64,000 bases of DNA from a virus: positions 1-64,000 of IMG/VR virus record IMGVR_UViG_3300044959_000131. One strand, 5' to 3'. The position numbers were made by a program, and so were the translations under genes. Positions 5,538-39,039 of the stretch are shown here, in pieces; the stretch's first letter is position 1, and every line of letters begins with the position of its first letter. Below the pieces are notes generated by a model that did not search any database, had not been told where the DNA came from, and worked only from the letters and a program-made list of their open reading frames with translations.

Positions 5538-6209
5538 ATGTTCAAACAGGTAAAGCCTGAGATGCAGCTCATCTCCGAAGCCCACCCAGACTTCGATAAG
5601 ATAGCGGACCCTAGAGTATTGGCTGCTGTAGAGAGGGCGCGGAGGACGGCAAACATATCCTCAGAGCAGGCAGAGAAGAACATCGGCTCTACTCCAGAAA
5701 TTCGAGCCAAGTACAAGATTGAAGTGATGTTCGAGAAAGGCCGTACATCGGCCGGTCCAAACCTCTGTGGAATTCAGATTTGGGAATCTGGAAAGAAGTT
5801 CCACGGAGGTGGGGACGAGCTGATGTACTGGTGCATGGATACGGAATCGAATCAGGGATGTAAGGGTCCTATACCAAGTGACCTCATAAAAGGCCCAGTC
5901 GCCGTATGCCCAAACTGCAACCGGGCCATCAGAATGGACCGAGCGGCCAATATGAGGATTTTGAGGGTTCCGACGAAGGTATTGGCTGCCGAGCTTGTAA
6001 AAATCTTCCGCTCACTCGATTCCAATGCGGATTTGTACTTGAAGTTCCACAAGACCGACGTTCGTTACATTGCTATGGAGAGGGCTAAAGGTCCAGACGT
6101 CGCTCGCAGGCTCAAAGGGATGCATATCTACCCACTCAAGAACATCTTGAAGGATACTGCGAATGGATCTGATCTTGGATCTAGGTTCCTAGCGTTTCTG
6201 ACATCTTAG
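5538..6209 (+). CDS. hypothetical protein with a central zinc-binding cluster
   Basis: 223 aa. Cysteines at LCGI and YWCMD, then GCKG and CPNCNRAI (about 75-130), could form one or two zinc sites. The C-terminal part (ADLYLKFHKTDVRYIAMERA) resembles a strand-helix nucleic-acid-binding segment, but no family can be named. It directly follows the upstream gene, and about 60 bases then separate it from the P-loop gene. Confidence 0.75.
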   Translation: MFKQVKPEMQLISEAHPDFDKIADPRVLAAVERARRTANISSEQAEKNIGSTPEIRAKYKIEVMFEKGRTSAGPNLCGIQIWESGKKFHGGGDELMYWCMDTESNQGCKGPIPSDLIKGPVAVCPNCNRAIRMDRAANMRILRVPTKVLAAELVKIFRSLDSNADLYLKFHKTDVRYIAMERAKGPDVARRLKGMHIYPLKNILKDTANGSDLGSRFLAFLTS

Positions 6210-6268
6210 ACATCTAGCCATTCTCGAACGCCTCCTTCCATCCTTTCAGGGACTTATTGGAGAGCGAC

Positions 6269-6883
6269 GTGACTGATATTGAGAAAAGGGCTGCGCCTCC
6301 AAAGTCAGAAGCCATTGCGAACGCTCGGAAGGCTCTAACAGACCGTGCCGTAGAAGCATTCATCGGCATGGATCGTCAGATTTTGAGAAACATGGCTCAG
6401 GAGGCGCTGTTCAAAATGAAGCCTCCGTATCGAATAGTCGTCTGTGGAGGAGCAGGTTCTGCAAAGACGACGTTCTCTGAGGAGCTCGGCAAGATTCTCG
6501 AAATCCCAACCTTCGACCTCGATCAATACATACCTGGTGGATGGGTCGAGGATGAGAAGGTATATCGAAGAGCGTTCTCGGAAGGGCTAAACAATCTTTG
6601 GAATGACGTCCCCGTTGAAAAGGAATGGATCATCGAGCACGTCGAAGCGGCCGGACCAGAAGTAAGAGACCTCTTCCATCCGAAATGGGCCATTCATCTC
6701 CATCCAGGAGTTTCACAGCTTCGGGCGATTGCAAAACTCCGTGAAATCTTTTCTGGTGAAAGTTCTGGGTCACGGGAGATAAGAGCACTTTCCAGTGACA
6801 AGATTTCCATGTCACAATTCCGAGATGCACCGGGAAGGGTCGTTTCGGAGGGTTATGGCTGGACGCTGAAGGAGCTCAGATGA
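6269..6883 (+). CDS. P-loop NTPase / small-molecule kinase-like protein
   Basis: 204 aa. RIVVCGGAGSAKTTFSEELG (about residues 55-74) is a Walker A loop of GxxGxxK(T/S)T type, followed by FDLDQY, the position where gluconate-kinase- and zeta-toxin-like enzymes carry a catalytic Asp. The preferred start is GTG 6269, with GGAG 6 bases upstream; the TTG at 6257 is inside that site. It overlaps the kinase-fold gene by ATGA, so the two probably act together. Substrate unknown. Confidence 0.7.
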   Translation: MTDIEKRAAPPKSEAIANARKALTDRAVEAFIGMDRQILRNMAQEALFKMKPPYRIVVCGGAGSAKTTFSEELGKILEIPTFDLDQYIPGGWVEDEKVYRRAFSEGLNNLWNDVPVEKEWIIEHVEAAGPEVRDLFHPKWAIHLHPGVSQLRAIAKLREIFSGESSGSREIRALSSDKISMSQFRDAPGRVVSEGYGWTLKELR

Positions 6884-7761
6884 ATCTCCAAATGCTTAAG
6901 AGCTTCCGTATGGAGCTCGAGAAGATTGCTGCTACACGAGCCCTGAAGGAAATAAGAAGGCTTATACGTTTTGGAAGACTGGCTGAGGCTGACGCTCTCG
7001 CGAGACGTCCAGGTGTCCTCAAACCTACTTTCCTTGGTCATCAAATCCACGATCTCGGTGCTGGCGCTGAAGGTGTCGCAACTCTTACAGCTGGTGGGAC
7101 AGCCCACGGAGGAGGTCTTGGTGTTCAGAAGATTTACCAACCTAAAGGCTTGTCCTCACAAGAGATGATTGCTAGGAAAGAGCAGGCCGGAATGGCTCTC
7201 CGATCCAACCCAATATTTGCTCAATTCCGTGGCTCCCAACAAGGTGTCGGAGGAACGACTGCCCACGCGATGGAATTCGTGCGCGGTAAAGCACCGGAGG
7301 TCTCTCCGCAAACCTATGCCCAAATACGAGCAGCTCGTAGAGGAGTTGTAAAAGGGATGAGGCAGGCAGGTTTTGTTGGAGCGGCGGATGTGCGTCCAGA
7401 AAATATGATTCAGACACCATCCGGGCAAGTTAAAGTCATCGACTATATGCCTATACGGAGAGGGGAGTTTGAATCTGGAAACGTAAGATCGAGTATCAGT
7501 AAGGAGTTGCAGTCTAAGGGTCTTGATCCACTTACCAAGGACGTACTCACCCAAACTCCAGGTACAAATCTCTTACGAGAGAAAATCGAGAAGTACTCTC
7601 CTGGTCAGCTTAAAGCGCTGCATTTCCGAGGAGTCCAACCCAAGACGCAAATTGCTAATAGGCCTATCTCTAAACCAGTAGGAAATCCGACTCGCTCGGA
7701 CAAGATCGTGAAAAATCCATCTCATGTCCCTACGAGACCAATGAGACCATCTGTCTTGTGA
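6880..7761 (+). CDS. protein-kinase-fold protein with a virion-type N-terminal motif
   Basis: 293 aa. A nucleotide loop (GAGAEG, 60-65), a candidate ATP-binding Lys84 in GVQKIY, a hinge-like MEFVRG (131-136), a catalytic-loop-like DVRPEN (Asp170, Asn175) and VIDY (Asp188, replacing DFG) follow the order of the protein-kinase superfamily, most like atypical or phosphotransferase-type kinases. The C-terminal 100 residues are basic and Pro-rich. The N-terminus, LKSFRMELEKIA (6-17), matches the start of the protein at 37142, suggesting a shared targeting tag. ATGA overlap with the P-loop gene. Confidence 0.65.
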   Translation: MNLQMLKSFRMELEKIAATRALKEIRRLIRFGRLAEADALARRPGVLKPTFLGHQIHDLGAGAEGVATLTAGGTAHGGGLGVQKIYQPKGLSSQEMIARKEQAGMALRSNPIFAQFRGSQQGVGGTTAHAMEFVRGKAPEVSPQTYAQIRAARRGVVKGMRQAGFVGAADVRPENMIQTPSGQVKVIDYMPIRRGEFESGNVRSSISKELQSKGLDPLTKDVLTQTPGTNLLREKIEKYSPGQLKALHFRGVQPKTQIANRPISKPVGNPTRSDKIVKNPSHVPTRPMRPSVL

Positions 7762-7776
7762 GCTAATAACATGCGC

Positions 7777-7816
7777 CAGCACTCATCATCCCATCGTGGG
7801 CCTGTCACCAGTGCTG
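7777..7816 (+). terminator. stem-loop after the kinase-fold gene
   Basis: CAGCACT (7777-7783) pairs with AGTGCTG (7810-7816), enclosing an inner CCCA-TCG-TGGG hairpin. It lies in the 142-base gap after the stop at 7761. There is no U-tract directly after it, so termination is uncertain; it could be an RNA stability or processing element. Confidence 0.35.
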
Positions 7817-7903
7817 ACTGTCACTCCGATCCAGAGGTGGCCACGTGTCCCAGAATGACAACTGTTTCTTTTCCTTCTTGTACCCTCTTTTTGAGGTATT
7901 TTG

Positions 7904-8212
7904 ATGCCGACATTTTCTGAACTTCATGAAAAGTTGCTGGCGGCCAAGAACCGGCGTCTTGTCTTACTTCACATCGCCGACCTCATTGAAGGGGAATTTC
8001 TGTCACACAATCCAGAGTCTCGGCCTAAGAGGCTTCTTCTGAACGAAGATAAGGTCCCGGTCCCACAGACCGCATTCGATGAAGTCGTAGAGAGTATCCT
8101 CAAGGAAGTTCAGGAACTGGACAAGCACATTCAGCAAATTCTTCAATCGACCTTGCAGGACCACAAGGTAGATGGTACTCAAGACGCTCAAAAGGAAGAG
8201 AACCATGAGTGA
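7904..8212 (+). CDS. small helical hypothetical protein
   Basis: 102 aa from the ATG at 7904 (GAGG 7 bases upstream; a TTG one codon earlier is less likely). Predicted mostly helical, with an EVVESILKEVQELDKHIQQI amphipathic segment near the C-terminus. It overlaps the next gene by 8 bases. No family recognised. Confidence 0.7.
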   Translation: MPTFSELHEKLLAAKNRRLVLLHIADLIEGEFLSHNPESRPKRLLLNEDKVPVPQTAFDEVVESILKEVQELDKHIQQILQSTLQDHKVDGTQDAQKEENHE

Positions 8213-10113: not shown

Positions 10114-10115
10114 CA

Positions 10116-10319
10116 CTACTTATTCCCGACAGACACCGTTCCCTTAGCGGTGCGAAGAGCCTCTGGCTTCTTGGTCTGTTTCACTACGGAACCGAGCGCC
10201 TTGATGATTCCCTCTGTTTCCTTGAGACATGCAGAGTCGCTGAATCCGTCTGCCTCGATGTTGACGTGTCCCGGGTCCTTAGGATCGATGCTGATGATGA
10301 TTCTCTTCTCGGATGCCAT
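10116..10319 (-). CDS. DUF2997-like small protein
   Basis: 67 aa. RIIISIDPKDPGHVNIEADG, then SDSACLKETEGIIKALG, follows the DUF2997 pattern: a strand with a Dx(D/N)G-like turn, a conserved S-x-C and a helix. AGGAG lies 6 bases before the ATG. By memory, DUF2997 and DUF1257 genes occur together near Ycf46-type ATPases in cyanobacteria and other bacteria, as they do here. Confidence 0.7.
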   Translation of the reverse strand: MASEKRIIISIDPKDPGHVNIEADGFSDSACLKETEGIIKALGSVVKQTKKPEALRTAKGTVSVGNK

Positions 10320-10328
10320 TTGCTTCTC

Positions 10329-10715
10329 CTAGATGTCCATCTTCCGCTCGTACTTTATGGACGAGCCGGTCTTGTGGACCGTAATTGGGATGGACTCATG
10401 CACGATCTGCAGGCTGTCTTCTATTTCTGGAAGTGATTCGCCACTCTTCCACTTCTTGTAGATGTCTTTTGATGACGGACTGGACTCAAGAACCTGTTTG
10501 GTGTGCTTGCATGATCGAATCTTCTCTCCAGTCTTGGCATTCTTCTTTGGGAAGATCCAGCCGGGGCAGTTGCAGGAGAGACTGCCGTCCTCCCAGAGGA
10601 GAGTCTGGTATTGAGCTTTCATACCCTCAACTTCTCTGTTGGAGGTGAAAACCCAACTGTAGATTGCCCTCCCCCTATCTTGTTTCTTGTTGGTTTTTCT
10701 CTTCTTGTCTATCAC
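10329..10715 (-). CDS. SWIM-type zinc-finger protein
   Basis: 128 aa. SCNCPGW (about 49-55) followed by SCKHTKQV (about 69-76) gives the CxCx(n)CxH signature of SWIM domains, which bind DNA or protein partners, with a basic N-terminus ahead. The GTG start at 10715 has only a weak ribosome-binding site. It lies between the DUF2997-like and DUF1257 genes of the same operon, so it may be an accessory of that module. Confidence 0.65.
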   Translation of the reverse strand: MIDKKRKTNKKQDRGRAIYSWVFTSNREVEGMKAQYQTLLWEDGSLSCNCPGWIFPKKNAKTGEKIRSCKHTKQVLESSPSSKDIYKKWKSGESLPEIEDSLQIVHESIPITVHKTGSSIKYERKMDI

Positions 10716-10776
10716 TTGTAATCTCTACTGATTTCTATGCATGAAGAATGTTTTCTTGCGATGTCGTGATCTCGAC

Positions 10777-11223
10777 TCAAGAGTACTTCGTGGCGTAGAG
10801 CTTTATGGTGCCGTCCTTCTCTTTCACGCGCTTCAGTGAGTAGCCCTGGCTCTTGAGCTGCTTTTCCGCCACCCTAGCTGTGTACTCCTGCATGACGAAA
10901 TTCTGCTTCTCGACGTCGAAGTTCCTTTTCTTGTCGAATTCAGAGATGTAGGCCACGTACTTTCCATCCCCGGTCCGTCGATACCCGACGTCGTTGGCCG
11001 CGCTGCCAACATTGTTCCTGCGAATGATGATGTGGCACGGCGGGGCGTAGTCGGGCGAGCTCCTGTCTAGGAGCGACCTGTTGTCACCTTGGTACCCGTA
11101 GAGTGGAGCTCCATCTTCGTGAACTTCGACGTTTCCAGCTCCGAATTGAGCTTCCAAAGCTTCGATGAGCTGCCTTTCGTACTTCTGGAGGAAGTCGACC
11201 TTGATTTCCGTAAAGTGGCTCAT
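10777..11223 (-). CDS. DUF1257 / Ycf35-like protein
   Basis: 148 aa. The opening MSHFTEIKVDF is the hallmark of Ycf35/DUF1257, followed by an alpha-beta region with CHIIIRRNNVGSAANDVGYR (83-102) and a DGKYVAYISEFD strand, and ending in a basic strand pair. Ycf35 is encoded in red-algal plastids and cyanobacteria; its activity is unknown to me. Here it is one gene downstream of the Ycf46-like ATPase. Confidence 0.8.
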   Translation of the reverse strand: MSHFTEIKVDFLQKYERQLIEALEAQFGAGNVEVHEDGAPLYGYQGDNRSLLDRSSPDYAPPCHIIIRRNNVGSAANDVGYRRTGDGKYVAYISEFDKKRNFDVEKQNFVMQEYTARVAEKQLKSQGYSLKRVKEKDGTIKLYATKYS

Positions 11224-11243
11224 GTGTAGTTCCCATCTAAGAA

Positions 11244-11274
11244 GGATGCCGGCTCATACTTCGAGCCGGCATCC
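11244..11274 (-). terminator. 12-bp hairpin after the Ycf46-like gene
   Basis: GGATGCCGGCTC and GAGCCGGCATCC form a perfect 12-bp stem with a 7-base loop, 22 bases beyond the ATPase stop. On the minus strand TTCTT follows, so it is a probable terminator or attenuator between the ATPase and DUF1257 genes. Confidence 0.6.
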
Positions 11275-11296
11275 GTTGTACCATACTACTCTGACA

Positions 11297-12847
11297 TCAG
11301 GCATCGATGGCCCGACCGATTGCAACTTCTCGCTTCTTTACGACATTGGCAGGTCGTGTGCGGCCCTTGCACCACTGCTGCATGGCCTCGATTTGTGACT
11401 TCATCATCTCGGACAGAGGAACCGTCTCATCAACGGCCATCTGAATGTCGATCATCCCAAGCTCCCGGTTTGCGGAGAAGGCCGTGAACATGGCCTCGTT
11501 GATGACAGCTTCGATCTCTGCACCCGAGAAGCCCTCGGTGTCCTTGACGAGGCCATCCATGTTGAGGTTCTTGATGAGCTTTTCACGTCCCCTCTTGGCT
11601 AGGTGGATGTGGAAAATCTCCCTCCTTTCGTCTTCGTTCGGCAGGAGCACCGAGAACGTTTCGTCAAAACGACCCTTCCGAAGGAGTTCTGGTGGAAGGG
11701 ACGATACGTCGTTGGCGGTCGCGTAGACGAAGACGGGACTTGTCTTCTCTTGCATCCATGTCAGGAATGTTCCTAGGACACGAGCCCCGACGCCCGAGTC
11801 CAAGTTCCCTGACCCAGAACCGGCGAAGCCCTTCTCAATCTCGTCCAGCCACAAAACGCACGGGGCAACGGCCTCGGCCGTCTGGATGACTCTCCTGGCG
11901 TTTTCCTCGGATGCGCCGACCAGTCCAGCGAATATACGGCCCATGTCACACCGAAGAAGTGGGAGACCGAGCTCTTCGCTGATGGCCTTTGCTCCCAATG
12001 ACTTTCCAGAGCCAGGAGGCCCAACCATGAGAATGCCTTTTGGTGATGGGAGGCCGTATTCTCTGGCTTTCTCAGTGAAAGCCTGCTTCCTCTTGGAAAT
12101 CCATTCCTTGAGGTTTGCCATCCCACCTACCTGCTTCAGTCCATTACCCTGTGGAGGGTAGTAGGTCAAAAGGCCAGTCTTCTTCAATGTCTGGCACTTT
12201 TCCTCCATGACCACCGCTGGGTCCCATCGCTTCGTGCTGTTGTTCATCTTGGACCGAACGTACGACAGTGTGAATGCGTTCTCGGCCTCAGATGTCGTCA
12301 GCCCAAGCGCAGCATCAATCAGTTGTTTCCTTAGCTCTGGACTCGGGATGCTGTCCCCCTTCAGCTTGGTACCATCGATGATACCCTGAATGACTCTGTC
12401 GAGCTCCTCCGGTCCAGGAAGATTCATCTCGACGAGTGCGAACTCCTTTTCAAGCTCTGGAGGAAGCTTGACGACCGGTGATATCACGACAACCGTCTTC
12501 TGGCTGGCCTTGTAGTGCTGTATGAGGTCGATGACCTTGGCCTGGATCCCTGGGTCTTCGAAGAAGTGGTGCATCAGTGGCATTGCCACGATGGACTTCG
12601 GGTTCATCTTTATCATGAAGTCGAGTGCGTTCGATGGTCCGTCTGTGTCATCGACCACCTTTGCGGTCCCCTCCCTCATGAGACCCTTCGATAGAGTCCA
12701 CACCCACAATTCTCGGTTCGTCTCCTTCGCGGCGAGACGAATCTCCTGCAAAGAGCGCATGTACTCCGAGCTCTGCAGGTAGATAGCCGGGTAGCCAGCC
12801 TTCACCTTCTCAATGATGGCCCTAGCGGTGCTGATGTTATTCGCCAT
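11297..12847 (-). CDS. Ycf46-like AAA+ ATPase
   Basis: 516 aa from ATG 12847 (GAGGGG 7 bases upstream; an in-frame start nine codons earlier is weaker). The N-terminal 220 residues contain the VVVISPVVKLPPELEKEFALV segment typical of Ycf46. The AAA+ core has Walker A GPPGSGKS (about 276-283), Walker B CVLWLDEIEKG (about 330-340), a sensor-1-like VYATAND and the arginine-finger region RKGRFDETF. The helical lid follows, with SGAEIEAVINEAMFTAF. Such ATPases are cytoplasmic remodellers; the plastid and cyanobacterial member has been linked to carbon metabolism. The upstream gene overlaps by 11 bases. Confidence 0.85.
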   Translation of the reverse strand: MANNISTARAIIEKVKAGYPAIYLQSSEYMRSLQEIRLAAKETNRELWVWTLSKGLMREGTAKVVDDTDGPSNALDFMIKMNPKSIVAMPLMHHFFEDPGIQAKVIDLIQHYKASQKTVVVISPVVKLPPELEKEFALVEMNLPGPEELDRVIQGIIDGTKLKGDSIPSPELRKQLIDAALGLTTSEAENAFTLSYVRSKMNNSTKRWDPAVVMEEKCQTLKKTGLLTYYPPQGNGLKQVGGMANLKEWISKRKQAFTEKAREYGLPSPKGILMVGPPGSGKSLGAKAISEELGLPLLRCDMGRIFAGLVGASEENARRVIQTAEAVAPCVLWLDEIEKGFAGSGSGNLDSGVGARVLGTFLTWMQEKTSPVFVYATANDVSSLPPELLRKGRFDETFSVLLPNEDERREIFHIHLAKRGREKLIKNLNMDGLVKDTEGFSGAEIEAVINEAMFTAFSANRELGMIDIQMAVDETVPLSEMMKSQIEAMQQWCKGRTRPANVVKKREVAIGRAIDA

Positions 12848-19490: not shown

Positions 19491-20480
19491 TCAAGGTGTT
19501 ACCTCCCATCCGTTCCAAGCAACACGAACTAGGCGCTGGCGACGCATCTCCTCGAGTGTCTCTCCGGGTCCTTCCAACTCCAGCTCGCTAGGCCGCTCAC
19601 AGAGAATGGCAAACTCGCGGTGCGGCCAGATGAGGCAGCAACTCTCACACAGCGCCGCGTAGGCGCGGGCCCGTAACTCCATGTCGCGCCCAATGTCGAG
19701 TCGCAGTACGTCGAGGGCATAGGATACAGCAGCGGGGCCCCACCACCAGCTGCCAACCGAGAACTGGGCCTCAAGGTAGCGCCGCCAGAGGTCGGCCACA
19801 GCAACGCCCGCCGCACTGTGCAACCCGTAGCACACTGCATCGCCAATCGCTCGATGGGTGGTGTTGCTCACTTCGAAGTGAACCACACGTCGCATTACAC
19901 CATGCACGGCACGATGTACCGCTCCATGCACCGTGTCGCCCACAGCGCTACATAATGCATCCTCCAGCTCTCTGGTCACGCTGTCGTGTACCGCGTCATG
20001 CACCGCCGAATGTACATCGGTGTGCATCAAGTCGCGTACCACGCCTTGCACGACAATAAACACTTCGCCCCGTACTGCGCCGCTGACGGAGTCGTACACC
20101 ACGCTGTCACCAGACAGCTGGAGCGCAGCCCGCGCACCCGCGAGGCACGCCACCAACGGTGACGACGCCCAAATGAGTCGCTTTGGAGGATGAAGTCGAG
20201 AGAGGCGATAGCAGGCGAGTAGAGCAGCCTCTGCTAGCGCCCTGTCGGCGGGCTGTATGCATCGGCCAACAGCAATCCACCGTCGTGCGTGCTCGTCGAG
20301 CTGCGCGCGCTCTTCGTCGGTAAGCGACTCCACACGCTTGCGCAGCGGCCCCTCGCGCTGCGGCAACTCGTCCCGGTACAGACGCGCCACGTCGATGCGG
20401 CCCTGCTCATCGTACCAGTCGCCGAGGACTTCGCGTCCATCGGCGGTGGAGGCGAGGGTGAGTATTTCCTGCTGCGTCAC
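19491..20480 (-). CDS. repeat-rich hypothetical protein, probably acquired
   Basis: 329 aa from GTG 20480 (GAGG 7 bases upstream). The N-terminus ADGREVLGDWYDEQGRIDVARLY recalls TIGR02996-type openings (leader of large paralogous families in Gemmata and myxobacteria). Residues about 130-215 are a run of short VHxAVHxxV repeats. The C-terminus has a WWWGPAAVSYALDVLRLDIG segment. Its GC content is visibly higher than the flanking genes, a sign of transfer from a GC-rich bacterium. Role unknown. Confidence 0.7.
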   Translation of the reverse strand: MTQQEILTLASTADGREVLGDWYDEQGRIDVARLYRDELPQREGPLRKRVESLTDEERAQLDEHARRWIAVGRCIQPADRALAEAALLACYRLSRLHPPKRLIWASSPLVACLAGARAALQLSGDSVVYDSVSGAVRGEVFIVVQGVVRDLMHTDVHSAVHDAVHDSVTRELEDALCSAVGDTVHGAVHRAVHGVMRRVVHFEVSNTTHRAIGDAVCYGLHSAAGVAVADLWRRYLEAQFSVGSWWWGPAAVSYALDVLRLDIGRDMELRARAYAALCESCCLIWPHREFAILCERPSELELEGPGETLEEMRRQRLVRVAWNGWEVTP

Positions 20481-24661: not shown

Positions 24662-27610
24662 CTACCGAATTGGGCAACCGCCTTTGCACTCGTCCTCGAC
24701 CTGTACGACTTCCTTACGACCTGTATAGGCGTCCCACTCTTCCTTGCTTACCTTCTGGTATGGGGCATTCTTTCGGCTCTTCTCCGGGAAGAACGTTGTT
24801 CCTTTGATGAATGGGATGGCCTCGATGAAGAGCCTCTCCATCTCTTCCTCAGAGGGCATCTTGTCCTCTGGCATGTTGATTGTGAAAGAGATAGCGTTGT
24901 CGGCGTAGCATTCCTGTAACATCATCTGCGTGCCCAAGGAGTCTTCGAGGCTGATCTCATCTTGACTCTCGATGAGTTCGTCTGGGTCGAGACCTTTTGA
25001 TCTGAGAATCTCCATTATCGGATCCTCGCACCAGTACTCGACAATCTCGGTATTATTCGCGTCTTCGTCTTTGTATGTCTTGTATCCCTCAATCTTCTTT
25101 ACCTGGAGCTCTGGGTCCGTATCAGCGTATCTGACGAGCCTCTTGAACCTCTTGTAAATGATGGCTTGCCCACTTGCCGATACACCCGGCATGAGGGAAA
25201 TGGTTCCTGTTGGAGCAAGAGCAGTATTCTTTACCGGAGTCGGAATTCCCAACATCTGAGAGTAACGACGTGCCTCGCTTTCTACGACGTTCTTGAAACG
25301 TCGCAGCTCTTGCTTGACGTTTTCATTCTTCCAGGCAGATGAATACTTTTCTTGGAATCGAAGAGCGAGCCATCCATGGTATCCTAAGAATCCGACTCCG
25401 ATTCTGCGGTTCCTTGATACGACCTCCCGCTGGCGAGGTTGTGGAATGTCGCCGTATGTGGCTCTGATGAGCCATCTTGTCATCAACCTGAATGCTTCCT
25501 CTGCATCAGCTTGAGGTCGGTTCGCGAAATACTGCAGGTTGACGTGTCCCAAGTTGCAGTTGCAAGTCAAGACACCTGCGGCAAGTGTGAACCTCTCGAC
25601 ACCTGGAACCGTCACGCAGTAGACCGGCACCTTCTCTTCAAGAGGTTCGATGGACACCACCTGCCACGCGAGTCCGTCTGTATCGGGGCGGCAGAGAGTG
25701 AAGAACATAAGAGGGTTCTTCCTCTTTCCGTAGTTAGTCTCGGTTGTGCCACTATCTTTCGCGGCCCTGAGAACCCAACCCGCTGCGGCTGCATTCTCCC
25801 TCAACCATGTCTCAGCTTGTGGGTGCGAGGATCCGAGGTGTAGGGTCCCATTTTCCTTTTCAGTGGCGTCTGCCATTCCCCAACCAGTGATGAAGCCCGA
25901 GAGGTAGTCTGAACCTTCAGAACCGTCTGGAAACTCTTTGAGGTTCTTCTCGGACTTCAACCACGCCTCAGGAGCCCCGTCGCACGACTGTGGGTAGGTG
26001 AGATGGTCGAAGAACTTGGCCATCTCTTCAGCTTTGTCTCCAAAGAGGCGAATGCGGTGACGCCACGCACCGTCGGCATACTGCCTATCTGCAGAGCCGT
26101 CTCCGAAGATGATGCCGTGTTGAACTCCTTTCTTATAGTCCTCGTTCTTTTCGAACGGGGCAGCGCTCATTGGGATGACGTCACCAACATGGAGAGAGTC
26201 TGTGACAGTACCGTCGATCCTCTCCCAGCGATGATTTGGGGTCACAACGATGTCGACGCGATAGTTGCTCCTCGTTTTCTGATAGCCCTCAGAACCGGTG
26301 TTCCGACGTACTGGGGCGAGTACGACGCGCTGAACGATTTGCTCACCGAATTGCCTGACGACACCAGGCTTCCAGCCCTGCGGTGTTGGTACGGTTACTG
26401 TCTGCCCAACTACGTCGATGAAGCGAACAGCTCCGTACTCTTTCGTTATGAATTTAACGTCACCAGCAAAGCAATTTTCCCACATCTGCAATCCGATTTC
26501 ACCGCACGGATTTGGGCAGAACATCTTCTCTGGCTCTCGCTCCCCTTTCATTGCGAGGCTTCGATTCCAGAGTCCTGGCTCTCCATTCAATCTCTTACCA
26601 AGGATGACTGCTCGAGCCACTTCCTTGGCATGTTTGTCTCCAATCTTGTAGGCCTCGATGAACTCGTCATCGACTTCAACAGAGATGTTCGTACTCCAAT
26701 GCAGTCCATCTGTTCTCTTGCAGTTAATGAACTCGAAGATGTCACTGTCCTTCCAGTTCTTGACAGACATCCTAGACGAACGACGCTTTCCACCTGAAAT
26801 GACACAAGAGGCGAGAATATGGTCCATCATCATTGCGTCGAGAGATGTCAGTCTACGTCCGTGGCAAGAGTTTAACTGCTTGCATACGTCGTGAAGCATC
26901 AAGACGAGAGGACCTGGTCCGCACGAGATTCCGCCAGAAGTTTTTAGAGGAAGGCCACGTGCTCTGATCTTCGACACGTCTATGACGAGCGTGGCCTCCT
27001 CACCTGACGATCGGTCCCATGCGGTCTTGAGCAAGAAATCGATCGCTTCGCACCATCCTTCTCGACTGTCTTCAACGACAAGTCTACTTGCCCTAGAGAG
27101 ACCGTTGTGGTCTGAGATCAGATGGAAGAAGTCCGAGTAGTTTGGGTGGTCTTTTCGGCAGGTGATGTGGAGATCAATTCGGCGGGCGATTGGAGGTAGC
27201 TGCTCCAGATAACGATTCGAGTAGTTCGAACCAACACCTCCTCCCTGCATCAGTTCATCAAATAGGAAAGTGAAGTGGTCTTCCGGCCTCTCTGGATCCC
27301 AGCCCGATGCGTTGCAGTTGAACAGGAACTGACGACCTTTCACACCTGAGGCGTAGAGATGGCGGCCTGCTGGGATAATCCCAAACTCCAGCATCAAGTT
27401 AATTAGCTTCCCTCGTTCATCCGGTTCGATGAAGGAGGAATCTACGAGTGATAGGTTTCCATCGACGGCCCTGATGACAGTTTCTTGATAAGTCTCGTTC
27501 TCGCCGTTCGATTTAGTCCGACTGTAGGAGCGTTTGTATACCTGTTCTCCGATAGGTCCCCACTTCACTCTGTAGTTCTTGATGTTCTCTGGGATTTTGC
27601 TTTCGATCAT
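24662..27610 (-). CDS. nrdJ: class II (adenosylcobalamin-dependent) ribonucleotide reductase with intein
   Basis: 982 aa, of which 677 are extein. FLFNCNASG has the first redox Cys (99), the thiyl-radical region MFCPNPCGEIG (363-373) contains Cys369 and Glu371, and DECKGGCPIR ends the protein with the dithiol pair Cys975/Cys979. This is the layout of Lactobacillus-type ribonucleoside-triphosphate reductase; the KGTTFFPEKSRKNAPY segment also fits. It would make dNTPs without oxygen or a partner subunit but needs B12. An intein interrupts residues 380-684. ATG 27610 has AAGGAG upstream and a promoter-like sequence at 27779-27808. Confidence 0.9.
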   Translation of the reverse strand: MIESKIPENIKNYRVKWGPIGEQVYKRSYSRTKSNGENETYQETVIRAVDGNLSLVDSSFIEPDERGKLINLMLEFGIIPAGRHLYASGVKGRQFLFNCNASGWDPERPEDHFTFLFDELMQGGGVGSNYSNRYLEQLPPIARRIDLHITCRKDHPNYSDFFHLISDHNGLSRASRLVVEDSREGWCEAIDFLLKTAWDRSSGEEATLVIDVSKIRARGLPLKTSGGISCGPGPLVLMLHDVCKQLNSCHGRRLTSLDAMMMDHILASCVISGGKRRSSRMSVKNWKDSDIFEFINCKRTDGLHWSTNISVEVDDEFIEAYKIGDKHAKEVARAVILGKRLNGEPGLWNRSLAMKGEREPEKMFCPNPCGEIGLQMWENCFAGDVKFITKEYGAVRFIDVVGQTVTVPTPQGWKPGVVRQFGEQIVQRVVLAPVRRNTGSEGYQKTRSNYRVDIVVTPNHRWERIDGTVTDSLHVGDVIPMSAAPFEKNEDYKKGVQHGIIFGDGSADRQYADGAWRHRIRLFGDKAEEMAKFFDHLTYPQSCDGAPEAWLKSEKNLKEFPDGSEGSDYLSGFITGWGMADATEKENGTLHLGSSHPQAETWLRENAAAAGWVLRAAKDSGTTETNYGKRKNPLMFFTLCRPDTDGLAWQVVSIEPLEEKVPVYCVTVPGVERFTLAAGVLTCNCNLGHVNLQYFANRPQADAEEAFRLMTRWLIRATYGDIPQPRQREVVSRNRRIGVGFLGYHGWLALRFQEKYSSAWKNENVKQELRRFKNVVESEARRYSQMLGIPTPVKNTALAPTGTISLMPGVSASGQAIIYKRFKRLVRYADTDPELQVKKIEGYKTYKDEDANNTEIVEYWCEDPIMEILRSKGLDPDELIESQDEISLEDSLGTQMMLQECYADNAISFTINMPEDKMPSEEEMERLFIEAIPFIKGTTFFPEKSRKNAPYQKVSKEEWDAYTGRKEVVQVEDECKGGCPIR
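25559..26473 (-). mobile_element. intein with LAGLIDADG homing endonuclease, inside nrdJ
   Basis: 305 aa, residues 380-684 of the host protein. It begins CFAGDVKF (Cys1, block A); block B is VVTPNHRWER (T457-H460). The C-terminus is PVYCVTVPGVERFTL...GVLTCN followed by Cys+1. The penultimate residue is Cys where His is usual. The two endonuclease motifs are HGIIFGDGS (498-506) and LSGFITGWGMAD (570-581). Removal joins WEN to CNLGHVNLQYF, restoring the conserved reductase run. Splicing and homing activity are inferred. Confidence 0.88.
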
Positions 27611-37141: not shown

Positions 37142-37624
37142 ATGGACTGGGAATCCATCATGAGTTCGTTCTCGGACGAACTCGAAAAGATCGCCTCTGA
37201 GTTAAAGAAAAAAAAGCCTCTTCATGAGAAAATTGTCGAAGTCGGTGCTCCTGTACTTGTAGGTTCTGGCGTCGGAAGGACTCTCAGCGAACTATCGTTC
37301 TCGAAGACTCATGGGGCCTCTCCAAGAAGGAAAACAATCGGCACCATTCTTGGTGCTCTTGGAGGTCTGGGATGGAATAGGCTTAAGGCCGAAAAGAAGC
37401 GTAGAAAGCGTTTAGAAAGACGTTTACGTGTATCGATGAAGCATCATCCGGTAGCGACTACAGCAGTGACTCCGCCTCAACCAACATCACAGATCAAGAC
37501 TGCTGCCGACCTGTTCAAATTCAAAGGAGTGGCCACGCCGAGATTCCTCAGCAAACCTGGAAAAAGCATTAGTAGCCAAGTACCAAAGATTGGGCGTCTA
37601 GGGACTCTTCCGAAGATGCCATAG
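37142..37624 (+). CDS. basic protein with a SFSDELEKIA N-terminal motif
   Basis: 160 aa. MSSFSDELEKIASELKKK (about 7-24) closely matches the start of the kinase-fold protein at 6880. A Gly-rich hydrophobic stretch (RTIGTILGALGGLGWNRL) and a run of Lys/Arg (KAEKKRRKRLERRLRV) follow, then a Pro/Thr-rich tail. The composition suits packaging with DNA or membrane contact. No enzyme motif. It starts three bases after the upstream stop. Confidence 0.65.
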   Translation: MDWESIMSSFSDELEKIASELKKKKPLHEKIVEVGAPVLVGSGVGRTLSELSFSKTHGASPRRKTIGTILGALGGLGWNRLKAEKKRRKRLERRLRVSMKHHPVATTAVTPPQPTSQIKTAADLFKFKGVATPRFLSKPGKSISSQVPKIGRLGTLPKMP

Positions 37625-38073: not shown

Positions 38074-39039
38074 ATGCAACTTTCCTCCGACAGACTCGGA
38101 GCTCTCGAATGGGCGTTGCAGAAGCTTTCGGCTAAGAAAGCTGGAACAAAGAAGAATCAGCCTCCAATCGGCATCCCAAAGGCAGAAGTTCTAAAGCCAG
38201 CCGAGGTGACTTTCTTCCCAGCCAAGCCAAAGGCGCCGAAAGCTCCAGCAGCAGTTACTCCTCTAATTACTGCTGCACCATCGCCAATCGTTTCTACTTC
38301 GACGCCTGCTCAGAAGAAAAAAGAGCTCGGATCGAAGAAGAAGAGCGAGCTTGAGCTGTGGGAGAAGTGGAATAGCGGTGGACGGAAGCCACAAGACCTA
38401 GACCCTCTACTCAAGTCTCTGCAACCGCTCATTGAAAATCGAGCCCGAATCTACAAGAACAACGTCGAGATTCCAAACGCGGCGATAGACTTCGAGCACA
38501 AGAGACTCGCCGTCGAGGCCCTTCAGAAGTACGACCCTTCAAAAGGCGCTTCTCTTGGAACATGGGTCTCGAACTACTTGAAGAAGGCAAGTCGATTCAT
38601 TCAAACCAACCAGAACTTTGCTCGAATTACTGAGCCCATTGCCGCAAAGATCGGAAAGTTCAACGCAGCTCGTGCCGAACTTACAGAGCGCCTAGGATTC
38701 GAACCGGATGCGCAGACGTTGGCCGAGGAGACCGGGTTCTCATTGAAGGAGATCAAGCGTCTGACCAAAGAACAGAGGAAAGGACTTGTTTCATCAGGTA
38801 TTACAGGAACAGAAGTAAGCCCTGCCCATTTACTCTCCTCACGCGAACAGGAAGTCATACACCTTATCTACCACCAGCTCACTCCTGAAGAGAGAGTCGT
38901 TCACGAGTACACTTTTGGGTTGATGGGTAAGCCGGCTCTAAAGCCGGGACAAATTGCTAAACAGCTCAAGATGGACAGCTCGAAGGTGGCCAAGATTCGG
39001 ACCTCCATCTTCAACAAGATGAAGCCTTACTTGGAGTAG
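38074..39039 (+). CDS. sigma-70-family-like transcription factor
   Basis: 321 aa. Residues 1-90 are a Lys/Pro/Ala-rich extension. AVEALQKYDPSKGASLGTWVSNYLKKASRFI (about 149-179) fits sigma region 2; AELTERLGFEPDAQTLAEETGFSLKEIKRL (about 206-235) fits region 3; LTPEERVVHEYTFG plus GQIAKQLKMDSSKVAKIRTSIFNKM (about 269-317) fits a region 4 helix-turn-helix. It could redirect host RNA polymerase to late genes. The first 20 residues (LEWALQKLSAKK) weakly match the nearby N-terminal motif. Confidence 0.75.
   Translation: MQLSSDRLGALEWALQKLSAKKAGTKKNQPPIGIPKAEVLKPAEVTFFPAKPKAPKAPAAVTPLITAAPSPIVSTSTPAQKKKELGSKKKSELELWEKWNSGGRKPQDLDPLLKSLQPLIENRARIYKNNVEIPNAAIDFEHKRLAVEALQKYDPSKGASLGTWVSNYLKKASRFIQTNQNFARITEPIAAKIGKFNAARAELTERLGFEPDAQTLAEETGFSLKEIKRLTKEQRKGLVSSGITGTEVSPAHLLSSREQEVIHLIYHQLTPEERVVHEYTFGLMGKPALKPGQIAKQLKMDSSKVAKIRTSIFNKMKPYLE

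Follow-up and report, generated by a model that had tools for sequence, protein, structure and literature searches.

An N-terminally tagged, divergent kinase-fold protein as a probable head cargo of an environmental phage

Several described systems are close to the gene discussed here. In phage T4, the first 10 residues of IPIII are enough for targeting, and targeting and processing residues are separable; Alt of the same phage is a delivered ADP-ribosyltransferase (excerpts of PMC9026906, also of PMC7411985 and PMC5694885). For gp21 of T4, LIE is named as the cleavage motif (excerpts of PMC9026906). Iyer and colleagues describe polyvalent proteins, predicted virion proteins that contain reduced kinase domains as well as ART, GNAT and InPase domains (excerpts of PMC5512222), and the T7 protein kinase (gp0.7), cited in the same excerpts, is a phage kinase with host-protein targets. 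The open-licence PMC literature contained no paper with DELEKIA, nothing joining capsid targeting with effectors, no paper on phage Arash (which is used for comparison below) and, by title, no virion kinase of the present kind. The T7 kinase is made after infection and is not known to be virion-borne.

The window (the whole stretch of DNA that was analysed, 64,000 nucleotides) covers the opening 64 kb of a phage record of 176,945 bases, here called G000. The gene under study, P0001, has the following surroundings.

5538 to 6209, plus strand: a conserved gene, which marks the upstream border of a cargo locus in relatives
6257 to 6883, plus strand: P-loop NTPase/kinase-like protein (phrog_2071 ATPase, E 9e-4)
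6869 to 6874, plus strand: AAGGAG, Shine-Dalgarno-like by its sequence, ending 5 bases upstream of the P0001 start
6880 to 7761, plus strand: P0001, tagged kinase-fold protein of 293 aa (an open reading frame with kinase homology by profile and by homolog)

P0001 starts with ATG and is coupled to the upstream P-loop reading frame through a 4-base ATGA overlap; a P-loop gene likewise adjoins the tagged kinase gene in the relative G002. The same plus-strand block holds a GroES-like co-chaperonin gene at 1604-1978 (+; Cpn10, E 1.5e-10). Elsewhere in the window, a ribonucleotide-reductase-like reading frame of 982 aa at 24662-27610 (-) seems, judged by its motifs, to contain an intein, and the product of a 329-aa frame at 19491-20480 (-) shows an uncommon series of VHxAVH-like repeats.

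As a single sequence P0001 matched no Pfam family and no PHROG family, and among solved structures it found PknA at E 0.25 only. With the terminase used as query, 8 related records were obtained, and P0001 matches at E <= 1 were seen in 5 of them (G004 was matched in this way). This count includes a false place in G006, at 74997-75188 (E 0.005), which we rejected because the reading frames there look unrelated. Alignment A1 was then built of four sequences, namely P0001, L016 (from G002, 43% identical to P0001), L017 (G005) and L019 (G003). Its profile matched the solved structures of PknA at E = 2e-7, StkP at 1.4e-5 and PknB at 0.0016, in register at the D-x-x-P-x-N loop and at the DFG strand. 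The best 60 of 106 rows were all protein kinases except for one OS-9 row (E 0.05), which aligned outside the kinase region. Reversed A1 sequences, used as a control, gave one match at E 0.32, and that was no kinase. L016 alone reached StkP at E = 1.5e-4 among solved structures and PF00069 at E 0.0077, while L019 alone matched no kinase. The kinase fold that a sequence-only reading had suggested thus finds good support in the profile, its control and L016, and we regard it as very probable. By sequence comparison, the reading frame 6880-7761 is confirmed as a genuine gene for a divergent protein of the protein-kinase superfamily.

At E <= 0.1 the A1 profile matched 5 of 41 records (G002, G003, G005, G058 and G006); of these, G002, G003 and G005 had already supplied rows of A1. 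The match at G006 7604-8032 is genuine. Another match, at G003 20234-20473, was rejected as a kinase, since it covers only profile positions 8-86 in a 109-aa protein; that protein has a tag-like start. Single-sequence searches with P0001 gave 0 of 49 capsid-related records, no relative in viral contigs or genome contigs, and no match in cultured phages by tblastn at E 10. Likewise, the A1 profile found nothing in bacterial genome contigs and L019 found nothing in phages, and L016 had 8 weak matches in phages (best E 0.1). Such absence of relatives is a weak result, because peptide-pattern scans are insensitive. Still, homologs of P0001 are few, and we count this against the reading preferred below. 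The capsid protein had 268 relatives in one IMG/VR scan.

The catalytic elements of P0001 are as follows.

7054 to 7074, plus strand: glycine loop LGAGAEG, residues 59-65 (G60, G62 and E64 invariant in five sequences)
7129 to 7131, plus strand: K84, predicted ATP-binding lysine of beta3 (invariant; beta3 is 80-86 in a low-confidence model)
7387 to 7404, plus strand: catalytic-loop motif D170-VRPE-N175, aligned to the catalytic loop of the kinase PknA
7435 to 7446, plus strand: VIDY (V186-I-D188-Y), the DFG equivalent (D188 invariant; aligned to ITDF of PknA)
7624 to 7758, plus strand: basic, Pro-rich C-terminal tail, residues 249-293, not kept in every homolog

The Gly loop, Lys84, DVRPEN and VIDY had been read from the letters at these residues, and indeed all of them are present, in that order. 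G60, G62, E64, K84, N175 and D188 are invariant in the five aligned sequences. D170 is found in three of the four A1 rows (P0001, L016 and L019) and N175 in every row; in L017 an Ala is aligned to D170, with an Asp two places earlier. The G006 homolog has, by eye, HIGDLGKN and VFDW, and MAFFT placed a gap in the HIGDLGKN loop. P0001 therefore has the complete residue set of the kinase superfamily (Gly loop, Lys, catalytic Asp/Asn and DFG Asp), and the homologs keep the same set except for D170 in the L017 type.

What is missing from P0001 is the His of the HRD motif, as there is no His before D170, and a full C-lobe, since the PDB alignments stop near the DFG strand, at profile position ~203-214. 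Both are missing from known minimal kinases too. In view of their absence we claim no more than a kinase that is divergent and reduced. Past D188 the protein has just 105 residues left, of which 45 make up the low-complexity tail, and the model of this part is poor; from the shortness of the region we take the C-lobe to be probably reduced or replaced. Counted by eye, the tail (last 45 residues) contains Pro 8 times, Lys/Arg 9 times and an acidic residue once. The description of a basic Pro-rich tail was correct for P0001, while its suggested role as a packaging feature finds no support, because homologs do not all keep such a tail.

Structure prediction is in agreement with a kinase in the order of its elements, at low confidence. 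AlphaFold2 with the single sequence was unusable (pLDDT 42.8), and with 5 sequences it reached pLDDT 46 and pTM 0.35. The low-confidence model from the 5 sequences has the order beta1-beta2-beta3-alphaC-beta4-beta5-alphaE-beta7-beta8. When it was submitted to Foldseek, each of the best 50 rows was a kinase, alone or in a complex (lowest E 2.2e-4, TM-scores ~0.2), and VIA-align gave Z ~8 over 78-81 residues of the N-lobe. Since the model itself is poor, these matches carry little weight alone. The proposed check by structure prediction thus returned the kinase element order and kinase fold matches, with a pLDDT of 46 that leaves the model at low confidence.

Do these residues make an enzyme? 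In our opinion it is reasonably likely, judging from the residues kept, that P0001 is an active phosphotransferase. The best surviving alternative, which we consider unlikely, is a packaged pseudokinase or scaffold, whose fold was kept to bind ATP, the head core or a partner and which does not transfer phosphate; just as unlikely in our view, it would help to assemble the head or would be ejected and act by binding. The missing HRD His, the loss of D170 in homologs of the L017 type and the reduced C-lobe would all fit such a protein. On the contrary, K84, N175 and D188 do not vary in five sequences, P0001, L016 and L019 retain D170, and the G006 homolog reads HIGDLGKN, all of which speaks against such a protein.

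The second part of the argument concerns the N-terminus of P0001 and its relation to other proteins of the same phage.

6880 to 6930, plus strand: N-terminal tag, residues 1-17 (MNLQMLKSFRMELEKIA), predicted capsid-targeting propeptide
37142 to 37624, plus strand: the second tagged protein of the window, SFSDELEKIA, 160 aa (by tag pattern)

The tag MLKSFRMELEKIA corresponds to residues 5-17 of P0001, and K15 and A17 are invariant in A1 though the remaining tag has diverged. FxDELxKIA is found in plus-strand reading frames of G000 at 6880, 37142, 87092, 119037, 137011 and 169275. Codons differ among the six G000 copies compared, hence the tag is conserved as a peptide and not as DNA. With a fixed tag pattern, 6 of 211 reading frames are positive in G000 (0.22 in shuffled N-termini), 6 of 258 in G002 (0.14), 4 of 274 in G022 (0.14) and 7 of 241 in G010 (0.06). 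The strict pattern gave none in G003 (0/45 reading frames) or in the parts of G005 (0/31) and G006 (0/25). Across 113 loci, which overlap and lie mostly around capsid genes, there were 37 N-terminal matches in 1454 reading frames, whereas 20 shuffles gave 0.75 on average and never more than 2. Inside proteins the tag was ~1/5 as dense as at N-termini. Reading frames were picked greedily by length, a procedure that dropped at least one tagged frame, at 171950-172201 (minus). This short frame (in L007) has a clear tag, AFLDELTKIG, and is the seventh tagged one of G000. The 38 tagged proteins fall into 18 unrelated body families (E <= 1e-3), and in 18 of the 38 the motif opens at residue 9. Judged by these counts, the N-terminal motif of P0001 is no chance match.

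A further alternative, in which kinase motifs as well as tag would be chance resemblance, is very improbable: it can point to the absence of a Pfam or PHROG family for P0001 alone, and it is already contradicted by the profile value of 2e-7, a reversed control empty of kinases and the tag enrichment.

In G005 the kinase homolog does not have FxDELxKIA and carries HYKSAEYIYDLYEKVA instead. The best N-terminal pair among 95 reading frames of that record consists of this homolog and protein 26029 (VKSAEYVYELYEKVG). Its score is 62, whereas none of 10 shuffled sets went above 46. Another common N-terminus, absent from the kinase, occurs in G006 (66 against a maximum of 55 in 5 shuffled sets).

Some further starts resemble the tag. 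A Sigma-70-like factor is encoded at 38074-39039 of the window (+; Sigma70_r3 E 2.6e-6, phrog_351 E 1.5e-11) and begins with ALEWALQKLSA, its G002 and G010 homologs having AIQWVLEKISA and ALEWVLGKIAA; this factor may be packaged too. Tagged proteins with Gly-rich, zipper-like C-terminal parts occur at 87092-87607 of the record (+; L003:4092-4607), at G002 63087-64085 and at G010 122415-123320. The first of them (Gly-zipper E 0.0064) is encoded just before the portal gene, and proteins of this type could be membrane-inserting ejection proteins.

The tag ends in hydrophobic-x-K-x-A (hxKxA), and this end is what relates it to head proteins. The G000 capsid protein has FFEKVA and KEKIA near its N-terminus; its distant homologs in Salmonella phage Arash (29% identity) and Vibrio phage D69 show, by eye, KEA at the corresponding place. 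In Arash, 9 head-region proteins contain 38 hxKxA motifs where 5.6 were expected, and in D69, 10 such proteins contain 36 where 5.7 were expected, often with many copies per protein, as is expected for core proteins that are cut up. Observed and expected numbers in head clusters are 27/11.0 for G000, 31/13.6 for G002, 31/11.9 for G010 and 38/10.2 for G022, and outside the clusters 59/47.4, 58/57.1, 70/46.6 and 70/57.2, respectively; in these counts cluster borders were set by hand and, for the G records, proteins of at least 1500 aa were excluded. The excess outside the cluster of G010 counts against a strict head-only reading of the motif. A match to phrog_18299, a family of head maturation proteases, was obtained with Arash gp222 (E 2e-6) and with its homolog at G002 87390-88970 (E 9e-6); the best match of both is phrog_2774, a family of unknown function. 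The G000 homolog of gp222, at 113249-118273 of the record (+; L004:11249-16273), is interrupted by inteins. From its enrichment in the head proteins of this clade, hxKxA is a likely processing motif. We consider that the tag is probably, by analogy with phage T4, a capsid-targeting propeptide with a prohead-protease site.

Two observations belong beside these head genes. The protease-like protein at 113249-118273 has intein/LAGLIDADG stretches (three, by Pfam Intein_splicing), which its 526-aa homolog in G002 does not have. A LigD-type 3'-phosphoesterase joined to an ATP-dependent DNA ligase (E 3.7e-13 and 1e-6) is encoded at 103846-105276 of the record (+; L004:1846-3276), next to the terminase; it has a K-x-A start (FILQKLAEYAPG) and is possibly head-associated.

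The genes around P0001 and its homologs give the third line of evidence. In L103 and G005 the homolog is directly behind the portal gene. The portal-position protein of L103 had itself no PHROG match; it is 42% identical to the G000 protein 87614-89674, for which portal families were matched (best E 3.8e-6). The G003 homolog is surrounded by genes for the terminase, an InPase (PF18823, E 8e-34) and a GNAT protein. The 868-aa product of G003 10114-12720 (L106:1090-3696, +), beside the kinase homolog, contains GNAT (E 1.4e-7) and SWIM parts. In G000 and G002 the surroundings of the kinase gene are collinear, and the gene is outside the head cluster, in a block of mixed genes.

Downstream of homologs of the marker gene at 5538-6209, the content changes from record to record. 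It is a P-loop protein and the tagged kinase in G000; the same two, preceded by a tagged ART-like protein, in G002; a tagged MazG/P-loop protein in G010 (MazG label E 7e-5); a 730-aa fusion of a kinase homolog with a SWIM module in G006; and a SWIM protein in G022. No such cargo was seen at the marker locus of G007, so that it is present in 5 of the 6 records that have the marker gene. The SWIM module, ~95 residues long, is common to proteins of G002, G010, G003 and G006 (pairwise E ~1e-9 to 1e-20, at a set database size) and owes its label to weak Pfam matches (E 0.05-0.6) and a C-x-C...C-x-H pattern. The ART-like label of the G002 protein comes from weak PARP and KptA matches (E 0.029 and 0.051). 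We take the YHGT motif of this protein to be an ART motif. PDB searches with it, and with G022 86201 and G022 62737, returned nothing useful; the latter two had been considered as an ART and, from HEVGH, as a metalloprotease, and both labels were dropped for want of library support. By the sequences compared, the kinase gene sits in a variable locus at which cargos are exchanged.

How likely is it, then, that P0001 is packaged? As a prediction, the suggestion that it may be packaged now has strong support: unrelated proteins of the phage carry its N-terminal segment, the end of this segment is the motif over-represented in head proteins, and in relatives the homologs directly follow the portal gene or have structural genes around them. 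On these grounds we believe packaging in the head to be quite probable. It would be natural to object that, in G000 and G002, the gene is in a block of mixed genes and not in the head cluster; P0001 might then be an enzyme of kinase fold that the infected cell produces and that stays unpackaged, with an N-terminus that serves, say, as an interaction or localisation helix. We find this rather improbable, because the tag occurs on unrelated proteins, some of them (119037) inside the head cluster, its K-x-A end matches the head-enriched motif and a homolog adjoins the portal gene.

Our preferred reading of P0001 as a packaged kinase can be put as follows. The minimal, divergent kinase would be made late, and its first ~17 residues would target it into the prohead core. 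The prohead protease of the phage would trim it after the K15-I-A17 motif, and the trimmed protein, sealed in the head with the DNA, would be ejected at the next infection. In the new host it would phosphorylate a target of that host ahead of phage gene expression. P0001 would be one cargo of a variable effector locus, the other cargos being ART-like and nucleotide-handling enzymes. We infer late expression, packaging, cleavage, injection and catalytic activity in this scheme. Ejection into the host, taken by itself and by analogy, appears moderately probable to us, and for the whole reading (a late-made, tagged, trimmed, packaged and injected divergent kinase acting on a host target) our confidence is moderate.

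A wider proposal, slightly favoured in our opinion, is that in this large clade of environmental phages a lineage-specific N-terminal code (here FxDELxKIA with a protease site) loads interchangeable effectors into the head: kinase, ART-like, MazG/P-loop and GNAT proteins and perhaps a sigma factor. The swapping of cargo at a fixed locus and the common SWIM module imply that packaged effectors of uncultured phages could be read from sequence. If this is true, there would be a packaging code readable from sequence for a clade with 268 capsid-protein relatives, and the capsid-targeting principle of T4 would be extended to a different protease motif. It would further provide a list of predicted injected effectors, a kinase-fold enzyme included, and proteins of uncultured phages that are now merely hypothetical could be tested as virion cargo. 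The question of what enters the host with the DNA of a large phage would become open to direct test.

It remains to compare P0001 with the known systems. PknA, StkP and PknB are the best sequence relatives among solved structures; they have a full C-lobe and the HRD motif, which in P0001 are reduced or missing. Like Kinase-PolyVal (PF18762), as described in excerpts of PMC5512222, P0001 has a probably reduced kinase domain that retains active-site residues, near GNAT, InPase and ART domains, has the Glu before strand 2 (E64, invariant) and is predicted to be injected. Unlike Kinase-PolyVal, P0001 has by eye no Gln in strand 127-132 (the last N-lobe strand), no His-Asp insert and no His before D170, and it is a stand-alone protein with a tag. 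The Kinase-PolyVal family model found 0 of 8 records at E <= 10, and Pfam searches that included P0001 gave no PF18762 row. Since neither the family model nor two described features agree, we do not file P0001 as Kinase-PolyVal.

Ejection proteins of SPN3US and phiKZ offer another parallel, as they are head proteins with N-terminal propeptides that are removed by the prohead protease before ejection, which is predicted here as well; their propeptides are mostly longer than 100 residues with another cleavage motif, in which P0001 differs (excerpts of PMC5694885 and PMC7411985). There is a close likeness to the capsid-targeting sequence (CTS) of T4 Alt and IPI-III, a short N-terminal segment on unrelated proteins with a likely prohead-protease end, and to Alt also in that an enzyme is the delivered cargo, delivery being predicted in our case (excerpts of PMC9026906 and PMC7411985). 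In this phage, too, a short N-terminal segment is common to unrelated proteins, and its end motif is common to head proteins, as seen from the motif enrichment and the protease family match, the cutting itself being predicted. The differences from the T4 CTS are FxDELxKIA ending in hxKxA, a kinase-fold protein as cargo and a cleavage that is predicted. The cleavage consensus of gp21 we take to be L/I-x-E. The tag ends in EKIA and does not agree with that consensus, hence it is not a T4 CTS and only resembles one. The proposed style of delivery is already known from T4 Alt and the polyvalent proteins, and P0001 is a variant of it.
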